DNA of 56,488 nucleotides from NCBI RefSeq assembly GCF_900114615.1, contig NZ_FOTS01000033.1, positions 1-56,488 of the forward strand, read 5' to 3'. The stretch's first letter is position 1; each line of letters opens with the position of its first letter. The DNA comes from Pelosinus propionicus DSM 13327 (lineage in GTDB: Bacteria > Bacillota > Negativicutes > DSM-13327). The position numbers were made by a program, and so were the translations under genes. Below are positions 41,041-42,928 of this stretch, one piece after another. The notes beneath the pieces were generated by a model, which searched no databases, had not been told where the DNA came from, and saw only the letters and a list, made by a program, of their open reading frames with translations.

Positions 41041-41178
41041 TGATGATTTAGGCACAAAAAGTGATGAACACGAAGAGGGTTGCGATTTCTTCGTGTTTTT
41101 CGCGTATTCGCGTTTCAAAATACGTTTTTTACTGGTCGTAGCATTTTTTGCGAAGAAAATAAATATTTTTAAAAAAAC

Positions 41179-41220
41179 TTGATATAAATCACAGATAAGA
41201 TGAAAATTATGGGGTATGAT
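41179..41220 (+). promoter_or_regulatory. FNR/CRP-type box and class II promoter
   Basis: TTGATATAAATCA (41179-41191) fits the TTGAT-N4-ATCAA box except for the final base. The -10 box TATGAT lies at 41215-41220, putting the box centre about 42 bases before the predicted start, the classical activator distance. Downstream gene starts at 41248. Confidence 0.6.
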
Positions 41221-41247
41221 AAAGATAATATTTGAGGAGGTGGCACA

Positions 41248-42204
41248 ATGTTACCTAAAGGTGCTAATTTACAAAAGATTCATAATGGAAATCGTACGTA
41301 TGCTATAACACCCCATTTGCCTGGAGGTTTTATAAAACCAGATGTTATGAGAAAGTATGCTGATATAGCTGAAAAATATCATGGAGTCTTGAAGCTGACA
41401 TCTGCGCAGCGGGTGATGATTACAGGACTTAAGGCCGAAGATATCGATAAAATATGGGAAGAACTTGGTATGCAGCCTGCCATGGGCTTTGCCAATTGCG
41501 TGCGCAGTATCAAAATATGCCCTGGAAATATCTTCTGCAAGAGAGGCAAGCAGGACAGCATTAAACTAGGCATGGAACTTGACAAGCTGTATCATAAAAA
41601 AGAAATGCCTTCTCGCATGAAATTTGGTGTAGCAGGCTGTGCCAATTCTTGTTCAGAGGTGCATGTAAAAGATATTGGTGTCATGGGAAGTGATATTGGC
41701 TGGGATATTTATGTGGGCGGTACGGCTGGTGCCCATCCTCGTTTGGCAAATCTTTTAATAGAAGGTTTGGAATACGATGAGGTGATACGTATTGTAGATG
41801 TTATCGTTCAATATTATCAAAAGAACGCGGATATAGAGAGAATGGGACAATTTATCGATCGTGTTGGCTTTAAAAAGTTTAGAGCGGATGTGCTAGCTGC
41901 TTTTTACCAAGGAGTAAGCCAAACCACAGAACCCCTAGTGCCTCAATCAGCAGAAGGAAAAGTGATTGTTCCTGTAGCAGGTGGTCTCACAGAAGGAACA
42001 TTGGTAATTGGTGATAAAATTACAGAAGAGAGTGTAATTAGTGATATTATCAGGGTTTATCCACAAACGGTTCCTGTATTCCGCTCCTTTGGTATGGGAT
42101 GCTTAGGATGCCCATCCGCCACTGGAGAGGCGTTAGAAAAGGCGGCGGGGATTCATGGTCTAGATGTAAAAGAAATTATAGCAGGTTTAAATAAAGTAAT
42201 TTAG
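41248..42204 (+). CDS. small siroheme nitrite/sulfite reductase-like protein with DUF1858 tail
   Basis: 318 residues. Residues 1-230 are one nitrite/sulfite reductase unit (ferredoxin-like half domain LTSAQRVMITG plus the siroheme-[4Fe-4S] region), with cluster/siroheme cysteines C91-x5-C97 and C131-x3-C135 (CPGNIFC, CANSC). Residues 250-318 form a DUF1858-type domain (VISDIIRVYPQTVPVFRSFGMGCLGCPS) with a CxxC. Full assimilatory reductases have two repeats, this one only one, as in the small clostridial/methanogen reductase-like proteins. Start ATG is preceded by GAGGAGGTGG. It is expressed from a likely FNR-controlled promoter, and pairs with the unknown gene at 42215. Substrate is not known. 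Confidence 0.85.
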   Translation: MLPKGANLQKIHNGNRTYAITPHLPGGFIKPDVMRKYADIAEKYHGVLKLTSAQRVMITGLKAEDIDKIWEELGMQPAMGFANCVRSIKICPGNIFCKRGKQDSIKLGMELDKLYHKKEMPSRMKFGVAGCANSCSEVHVKDIGVMGSDIGWDIYVGGTAGAHPRLANLLIEGLEYDEVIRIVDVIVQYYQKNADIERMGQFIDRVGFKKFRADVLAAFYQGVSQTTEPLVPQSAEGKVIVPVAGGLTEGTLVIGDKITEESVISDIIRVYPQTVPVFRSFGMGCLGCPSATGEALEKAAGIHGLDVKEIIAGLNKVI

Positions 42205-42214
42205 GAGGCTCATC

Positions 42215-42886
42215 ATGAGTGCATTTTTAGGTCATATTCATTACTGGTTATATCATAAAATCGGACGGGTAGTTGAACGCGAGCAGCTGATTTTTCAGAA
42301 GGCTGAGGAAATGTGCGGAGCTGCGGCAGAGGAGCTGCAGTCTCAGGTTTGGCAGATTTATGGTCAGCCTTTGCCGGATACAGAGCTTGGCGAGTTAATT
42401 GATCATTCCAATATTCATGGCTGGCTGCAGCGTCAGATTACAATTGCAGAGACCAGGGAAGCTGCTTTCATTAAAGAACTGCTGGATACTTGCGGCGGCG
42501 CCGCTCAAGATATTGTACTATCCGCCTATGCTGAACATGGCAAGCTGTGCGGTGAACACGCCAAATCCCAGGAAAAATATGATGGACAAAGAGCAGCGGG
42601 GATTTATCAGGCAGTCAATGACTATATACTAAATGGCATGCCTTGTGATCAGGGAGATGTAGTAACCGTCAATGAAGCTGATACGGTTATATGGGAAGGT
42701 GAAACCTGCCTGCAGGAACGGAATTGGACGAAAGCTGGCGTGGATAAAGCCTTTATGAAAGAATGCTATCAGAAATGGTTTGTTGGCTTTGTGAAAGCTC
42801 TTAACCCTGCATTTACGTATAATCAAACGGCTGATACCTTAAAAGGTGGTCCGGTAAATCGACACCAAATTCTAAAAGAAGCATAG
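42215..42886 (+). CDS. conserved protein of unknown function, partner of the siroheme protein
   Basis: 223 residues, unrecognised. It is soluble, without signal peptide, rich in helix-forming residues. It starts FLGHIHYWLYHKIGRVVEREQL and contains scattered His and Cys (HSNIHGWLQ, LDTCGG, AEHGKLCGEHA, MPCDQGD, GETCLQE, MKECYQKW). These could bind metal or heme. It begins 10 bases after the siroheme gene with its own TAGGAGG site, so both are made together. Possibly a redox partner or maturation factor of that protein. I do not assign a function. Confidence 0.75.
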   Translation: MSAFLGHIHYWLYHKIGRVVEREQLIFQKAEEMCGAAAEELQSQVWQIYGQPLPDTELGELIDHSNIHGWLQRQITIAETREAAFIKELLDTCGGAAQDIVLSAYAEHGKLCGEHAKSQEKYDGQRAAGIYQAVNDYILNGMPCDQGDVVTVNEADTVIWEGETCLQERNWTKAGVDKAFMKECYQKWFVGFVKALNPAFTYNQTADTLKGGPVNRHQILKEA

Positions 42887-42896
42887 TGCAACGAGA

Positions 42897-42928
42897 ATAA
42901 GGACTGCCAAATTGTTGGCAGTCCTTAT
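42897..42928 (+). terminator. terminator of the siroheme operon
   Basis: A perfect 14-bp stem (42897-42910 with 42915-42928) around ATTG. Only a short T-rich tail follows. Confidence 0.75.

Follow-up and report, generated by a model that had tools for sequence, protein, structure and literature searches.

A conserved siroheme–DUF1858 gene pair in Pelosinus propionicus, its CRP/FNR-type operator and its probable place beside hcp in nitrosative-stress defence

Contig NZ_FOTS01000033.1 of Pelosinus propionicus DSM 13327—56,488 nucleotides (nt), analyzed whole and called the window below—carries a two-gene operon with a CRP/FNR-type box on its 5′ side and a hairpin on its 3′ side. The first gene, P1, encodes a one-repeat siroheme protein with a C-terminal DUF1858 domain; the product of the second, P2, appears from family searches to represent a new, uncatalogued protein family and to be the new element of the pair. 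The gene pair, its conservation, the operator type it has in common with other genes, and a repeated neighborhood of Hcp, ferredoxin, hemerythrin (RIC-like), and DUF1858 genes were observed directly. On balance we think it probable that the operon belongs to an anaerobic nitrosative-stress regulon shared with hcp, and that it encodes a ferredoxin-fed siroheme reductase with P2 as its accessory.

P1 combines a single NIR_SIR_ferr stretch, a single NIR_SIR stretch, and DUF1858 (Table 1), which is not the two-repeat layout of SiR, NirA, and CysI. The last domain also passes the NCBIfam model TIGR03980, a hybrid-cluster-protein-associated redox disulfide domain (75.8 bits against a cut-off of 44.95; residues 258–315). 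Across 14 aligned P1 sequences, the Pelosinus protein included, C91-x5-C97, C131-x3-C135, and the DUF1858 pair C285-x2-C288 are invariant, and cysteines 91, 97, 131, and 135 align with cysteines of solved siroheme enzymes; P1 presumably carries siroheme and a [4Fe-4S] cluster. The top curated family for the siroheme half is NirB, the NADH nitrite reductase large subunit (TIGR02374, NCBIfam), with which P1 shares one siroheme/[4Fe-4S] repeat with four cysteine ligands. P1 nevertheless falls below the NirB cut-off (184.6 against 578.35 bits, covering profile positions 552–760 of 794), and no Pfam match in its 318 residues corresponds to the N-terminal FAD/NAD(P)H module of NirB, DUF1858 standing in its place. 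One-repeat siroheme proteins are not unusual by themselves: 44 of 398 Bacillota genomes encode a close relative in an open frame of fewer than 400 residues, and from the NirB and AsrC structures we take NirB to have a single siroheme repeat.

The two genes are separated by 10 nt from the stop of P1 to the start of P2. Upstream, the operator letters TTGATATAAATCAC at 41179–41192 are centered at 41185.5, about −41.5 relative to the inferred RNA start, the spacing of a class II activator site (distance computed for P1 only). Downstream, segment 42888–42940 folds at −28.8 kcal/mol (z −8.1), with a weak U tract 3′ of the hairpin.

Table 1. Features of the P1–P2 operon, in window positions
Feature	Position	Strand	Remarks
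CRP/FNR-family operator, class II position	41178..41193	+	core TTGATn4ATCAC at 41179-41192; from ortholog comparison
-10 element TATGAT	41215..41220	+	inferred RNA start near 41227
P1, one-repeat NirB-type siroheme/[4Fe-4S] protein (putative) with C-terminal DUF1858, 318 residues	41248..42204 including stop (coding 41248-42201)	+
NIR_SIR_ferr half domain PF03460, P1 residues 13-74	41284..41469	+	Pfam E 3.3e-17
NIR_SIR 4Fe-4S/siroheme domain PF01077, P1 residues 82-216	41491..41895	+	Pfam E 1.1e-27; Cys 91, 97, 131, 135
DUF1858 PF08984, redox-disulfide domain, P1 residues 258-311	42019..42180	+	Pfam E 8.4e-18; C285-x2-C288
P2, uncatalogued family, predicted H-NOX/V4R/TRAPP-like fold, 223 residues	42215..42886 including stop (coding 42215-42883)	+
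Invariant GMPCD loop, P2 residues 141-145	42635..42649	+	low model confidence; candidate ligand/cofactor site
Terminator-like hairpin, 14-bp stem	42897..42928	+	just 3′ of P2

A region-wide promoter scan did not single this promoter out (12 found; shuffles averaged 7.9, standard deviation 3.0); comparison of ortholog upstream regions did. From 32 loci offered, two of them without a siroheme reductase-type (SIR) gene, 23 passed the start-finding filter, and four of these 23 upstream regions are close Pelosinus copies. Their boxes grade into TGTGAn6TCACA and sit 74–110 nt 5′ of the conserved N-terminal core of P1, with at most two mismatches in 21 of 23 regions and at most one in 12; the upstream regions at loci L041 and L173 have no box. 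When each of those 12 regions was shuffled 300 times, no more than 1.7% of the shuffles scored as high. The P1 operator is supported because the box is conserved in orthologs, not by its count in the window.

The exact box, TGTGAn6TCACA, occurs 10 times at nine places in the 5.41-Mb genome, against four for a reversed-pattern control. It lies upstream of hcp on two contigs (C38 and C70), between a SIR paralog and an H-NOX chemoreceptor gene on C59, upstream of a hemerythrin gene (C128), and upstream of a cupin gene (C69) homologous to the cupin gene found 3′ of P2 in L039 and L042; the related box-mates, at five of the nine places, were chosen after they had been seen. An operator of the P1 type is thus shared with hcp-type regulon genes, the P1 copy standing two mismatches off the exact form. 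A same-strand CRP-type regulator gene precedes P1 by 142–567 nt in L039, L040, L044 (same contig as L180), L046, and L175, and precedes P2 by 238 nt in L043. These regulators have cNMP_binding and HTH_Crp_2 domains (Pfam; L039 and L175 checked), and a homolog in the Pelosinus genome adjoins hcp on C38 (E 5.5e-72). That hcp gene (L158, 5585–6883) encodes a 432-residue Hcp without about profile positions 77–161 of the Prismane family.

In the literature, HcpR/Crp2 regulons place hcp, ferredoxin, and hemerythrin genes under a CRP/FNR-family regulator, as here, and hcp of T. tengcongensis has a CRP-like site; they differ in that the available part of that paper does not name P1 or P2 and the P1 box resembles TGTGAn6TCACA, not the HcpR2 consensus (PMC1274295). 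Nitric oxide (NO) co-induces RIC, nitrite reductase, and siroheme genes in Bacillus cereus (PMC8151001), and nitrate strongly raises hcp1 in Sporomusa ovata (PMC12780646); the true role of Hcp is disputed (PMC12780646, PMC10949509). The DUF1858 protein gene bsl7085 appears in a table for NnrR, a denitrification regulator (PMC6710368), and the domain also turns up in DrpB of Thermus nitrate respiration (PMC6282519).

To survey the neighborhood of P2, we grouped 63 P2 loci at 75% identity into 47 clusters and counted neighbors within 1.5 kb by single-pass phmmer, because iterated profiles had labeled the SIR proteins of L050 and L087 as DUF1858. L096 and L178, lacking a P2 open reading frame of more than 100 residues, were dropped before counting, and seven further loci (L193–L199) lie outside the counts. 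SIR genes were found in 27 clusters, DUF1858 in 31, Hcp in seven, and hemerythrin in six, with at least one of the four in 33; in 30 of 47, a SIR or DUF1858 gene stands at most 60 nt from P2 on the same strand. None of 19 control V4R loci of the same class, surveyed over about 1.5 kb on each side, has any of the four.

The makeup of these neighborhoods varies. Most Negativicutes loci, like Heliophilum, have the SIR–DUF1858 fusion seen in P1; Cetobacterium encodes SIR, DUF1858, and P2 by three separate consecutive genes; and Paraclostridium, Peptoclostridium, and others have a set of DUF1858, P2, and hemerythrin, with or without Hcp. L175 reads regulator, P1, P2, ferredoxin, hcp, and L047 reads Hcp–DUF1858 fusion, P2, hemerythrin. 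In L047, L052, L053, L081, and L091, P2 accompanies DUF1858 and hemerythrin or Hcp, with no SIR gene within 4.5 kb. Across 398 Bacillota genomes, P2 occurs in 22, a close SIR (E ≤ 1e-35) in 53, and both in eight—an enrichment of close SIR in P2 genomes (8/22) over the others (45/376). We rejected P2 as an obligate subunit of the siroheme enzyme, because across clusters and genomes it is also found where SIR is absent and DUF1858 stands with hemerythrin or Hcp, and where none of these genes lies within 1.5 kb. Beside P2 in L088 (5840–8188) is a gene for a 782-residue protein that joins a NIR_SIR domain and two NIR_SIR_ferr stretches to a TusA domain at the C terminus.

P2 is present in 30 of the 40 genomes in the relatives set, which includes the Pelosinus genome itself, and in 10 of the 82 genomes from the class of G084; it also occurs in Pelosinus fermentans JBW45 (L030) and on six plasmid records, two of them from Cetobacterium (Fusobacteriota). 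The plasmid record of L051 (NZ_CP128848.1), filed as Streptomyces flavofungini, carries Clostridium-like DNA by gene content, with a histidine kinase gene about 2.6 kb from P2; presumably it is a contaminant. In L095 (1943–7679), a 127-residue P2-like protein, equivalent to the C-terminal part with MPCD, is encoded 3′ of two radical-SAM-type genes and 5′ of two siroheme-decarboxylase-type genes. That cluster adjoins an H-NOX chemoreceptor gene, and its 330-residue radical-SAM-type protein was checked in Pfam.

P2 has no Pfam match and no PDB sequence match at E ≤ 10; NCBIfam returned one chance-level match (E 0.13; 11.7 bits against a cut-off of 140), and a P2 profile searched against PDB sequences gave nothing useful (best E 1.8, an unrelated capsid protein). 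The invariant residues of 18 diverse members are F4, H9, W11, L12, K15, I16, G50, L58, I67, H68, W70, L71, E79, R81, A83, L139, and G141-M-P-C-D145. The GMPCD loop with H9 and H68 is a candidate ligand or cofactor site.

An AlphaFold model of P2 is confident overall (predicted local distance difference test score, pLDDT, 89.9; predicted template modeling score 0.88) and begins with a long helix, continues in a helical core, and ends in an alpha/beta part, with the GMPCD loop below pLDDT 50. Foldseek placed H-NOX (2o09; E 1.9e-3, probability 1.00), PoxR, and TRAPP/Bet3 at the top, with no row below E 1e-3. VIA-align, which works on Foldseek's own matches, gave tied scores for 1wc9 (Z 8.9, root-mean-square deviation 3.9, 145 residues aligned), the H-NOX 2kil (Z 8.8, 4.2, 165), and the PoxR 5fru (Z 8.1, 4.2, 146); a Z near 9 is modest. 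All of the best 50 rows from Foldseek and all of the best 50 from VIA-align belong to the H-NOX/V4R-type/TRAPP group, which is classed as one ligand-binding superfamily. P2 probably adopts this type of fold, going by the model; that it binds haem or NO is a tentative idea, which we hold to be doubtful. Its differences from the group—H-NOX, V4R/XylR_N (PoxR, MopR), and TRAPP (Bet3)—are the absence of a Pfam HNOB or V4R match (H-NOX PF07700 is not matched at E ≤ 1) and the addition of an N-terminal helical part with H9 and W11 and of the GMPCD loop.

An earlier note, made from the DNA letters alone, had described several of these elements. Pfam and NCBIfam domains and the invariant cysteines agree with its one-repeat siroheme reductase-like protein fused to DUF1858; a synteny search bore out its tight pairing in Negativicutes and in Heliophilum; and its partner of unfamiliar family indeed lacks a convincing Pfam, NCBIfam, or PDB sequence match. 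The class II FNR/CRP-type promoter it proposed is likewise supported, in position and in conservation, and TGTGANNNNNNTCACA is listed as an FNR consensus (PMC8151001). Its label "His/Cys-rich" for the partner was loose: among the His and Cys residues of P2, only H9, H68, and C144 are invariant in the 18 diverse proteins.

A published counterpart of P1 is DEACI_1836 of Acididesulfobacillus acetoxydans, a 300-residue protein with one PF03460 + PF01077 repeat, flanked by a ferredoxin gene and a hypothetical gene. Nitrate raises it 16-fold in RNA and 29-fold in protein, together with hcp; its authors put it forward as a putative ferredoxin-dependent nitrite reductase, with homologs in the Desulfitobacterium/Desulfosporosinus family (PMC10949509). 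In 13 loci of our family f26 (L200–L212), the SIR proteins are 46–51% identical to P1, and at least eight of the loci show a convergent ferredoxin gene. DUF1858 is N-terminal in 12 of the 13 (by eye and by separate DUF1858 matches; L212 checked in NCBIfam), and therefore the two domains of P1 recur in the opposite order. By its GTDB placement we take f26 to be the Desulfitobacterium/Desulfosporosinus family, and so that of DEACI_1836. Its size and these relatives suggest that DEACI_1836 itself contains DUF1858; the available part of the paper names two domains only. P2 occurs in none of 45 f26 genomes, for which reason we set aside the idea that the neighboring DEACI_1835 is P2; a small upstream gene there looks zinc-ribbon-like in L202, L209, and L212.

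These comparisons overturn one premise of the earlier note, that a single repeat is unusual: NirB has one too, 44 of 398 Bacillota genomes have a short-frame close relative, and DEACI_1836 is published (PMC10949509). Its proposal of an undescribed anaerobic redox pair stands in part, the context having a nitrogen-oxide theme; against it, a one-repeat protein is already published and P2 is not an obligate siroheme-enzyme subunit. The note's observation is confirmed and its interpretation partly supported. A search of open-access PMC found no description of the P1–P2 pair, P2 having no name to search by, and no paper joining DUF1858 or Pelosinus with hybrid cluster protein; two papers that mention both siroheme and H-NOX appear to concern other subjects.

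RIC proteins (YtfE/ScdA), known alongside Hcp, offer a further comparison. Operons of DUF1858, P2, and hemerythrin, in some cases close to Hcp, look like ScdA_N and a di-iron protein split into separate genes, and the DUF1858 of P1 matches ScdA_N weakly (11.7 bits against a cut-off of 32.5; E 0.21). The Pelosinus pair differs in having no hemerythrin gene beside it in the window and no Pfam hemerythrin domain in P1 or P2.

One-repeat SIR genes also occur elsewhere in the Pelosinus genome. On C59 (L152, 5217–7903), a second such protein, 39% identical to P1, is encoded divergently from an H-NOX chemoreceptor gene, with an exact TGTGAn6TCACA box between the two. On C46 (L153, 7021–7692), a third SIR protein is a standalone half with 47% identity to P1; a protein of ferritin-like look lies nearby, and the region upstream of the SIR gene showed no good operator box. 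A SIR gene flanks the H-NOX gene in 14 of the 30 Negativicutes loci of L122–L151 (several from the same genus), which suggests an association of one-repeat siroheme proteins with NO sensors.

A V4R/H-NOX-like fold can accommodate tetrapyrroles, as in BchJ, and the main alternative to a nitrogen-oxide reductase builds on this: P2 would be a tetrapyrrole carrier or insertion factor loading siroheme into P1, or the pair would act in siroheme-to-haem conversion. The H-NOX-like model, two adjacent siroheme-decarboxylase-type genes in the Pelosinus genome, and the P2-like protein inside the ahb-type (siroheme-to-haem) cluster of L095, beside an H-NOX chemoreceptor, all favor siroheme or haem handling. 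We nonetheless consider it unlikely, since P2 stands with DUF1858 and hemerythrin or Hcp but no nearby SIR gene in the five loci named above, and the L095 protein lacks the N-terminal part bearing H9 and H68. The same H-NOX-like model, together with the SIR genes beside H-NOX in Negativicutes, could make P2 a noncatalytic NO or iron sensor gating P1 or Hcp. P2, though, has no recognizable output domain and no PF07700 match, and in the four loci read gene by gene (L038, L039, L042, and L175) the only signaling gene beside it is the CRP-type regulator; a sensory role seems to us quite unlikely.

Sulfur chemistry would turn P1 into a small sulfite (or polysulfide or thiosulfate) reductase and the pair into a sulfite detoxification system. 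Its appeal lies in the closest PDB sequences to P1, which are F420-dependent sulfite reductases, in a SulP permease gene divergent from P2 in L051, and in the TusA-bearing SIR protein beside P2 in L088. NirB is nevertheless the top curated family for P1, and the recurrent neighbors, like half of the box-mates, are Hcp, hemerythrin, DUF1858, ferredoxin, and H-NOX, in a survey with no search aimed at sulfur genes; we judge this explanation improbable. That the adjacency arose by chance between unrelated genes might draw on the clusters with none of the four neighbors, but it is contradicted by the survey—close, same-strand placement in 30 of 47 clusters, Bacillota and Fusobacteriota both represented, against none of 19 control loci—and its probability is negligible.

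Several observations weigh against the nitrosative-stress interpretation. The box within the window is by itself not above chance (eight matches at one mismatch or fewer, 6.27 expected; one of the eight exact), and the P1 box has two mismatches to the exact hcp-type box. Nine orthologs have two-mismatch boxes only, a level that 11–14% of shuffles reach. Four of the nine exact-box places (C36, C39, C78, and C84) have no evident link to the regulon, and the C69 cupin box also faces an asparagine-synthase-like gene. In 14 of the 47 P2 clusters, the four neighbors are all absent within 1.5 kb, and P2 often occurs without a close SIR. The predicted P2 fold has one good model behind it: for a second model, that of the 190-residue L047 P2 (pLDDT 74), Foldseek E values were 2.6 or higher and VIA-align Z scores 5.1 or lower, with some TRAPP rows. 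Profile comparison of P2 by hhalign was not significant (V4R, PF02830, E 0.014; V4R + XylR_N, 0.071; XylR_N, 0.47; H-NOX, 0.29; reversed or unrelated controls, 0.039–0.76), a comparison of little power because V4R/XylR_N against H-NOX itself reaches only E 0.035. The substrate of P1 and the role of P2 are both inferred from context.

Under the nitrosative-stress interpretation, a CRP/FNR-family regulator would switch P1–P2 on under anoxia or nitrogen-oxide stress, as the genomic context suggests. P1, by its family membership, would bind siroheme on its [4Fe-4S] cluster; with electrons from a small ferredoxin, it would reduce nitrite, hydroxylamine, or NO, both partner and substrate being suggested by the context. 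The DUF1858 C-x2-C may pass electrons or carry a thiol-bound intermediate. More speculatively, P2, with its predicted H-NOX/V4R-like fold and the invariant His9, His68, and GMPC(144)D, could be an accessory that works with its DUF1858 partner and binds the same ligand or an iron or tetrapyrrole cofactor. A bolder version, which we regard as rather unlikely, makes P2 a new H-NOX/V4R-like branch—one that does not signal but serves DUF1858 proteins, as catalytic or cofactor partner, in the anaerobic detoxification of NO and nitrite—and P1–P2 a compact nitrogen-oxide reductase composed of half a sulfite/nitrite reductase and a subunit that binds NO or a tetrapyrrole.

Siroheme and Hcp-linked nitrogen-oxide defence are already known; P2 is the new part. 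For the disposal of nitrite, hydroxylamine, and NO by strict anaerobes, this conserved and apparently co-regulated operon supplies a concrete set of parts, and it hints at what DUF1858 and P2, two "unknown" families, may do.

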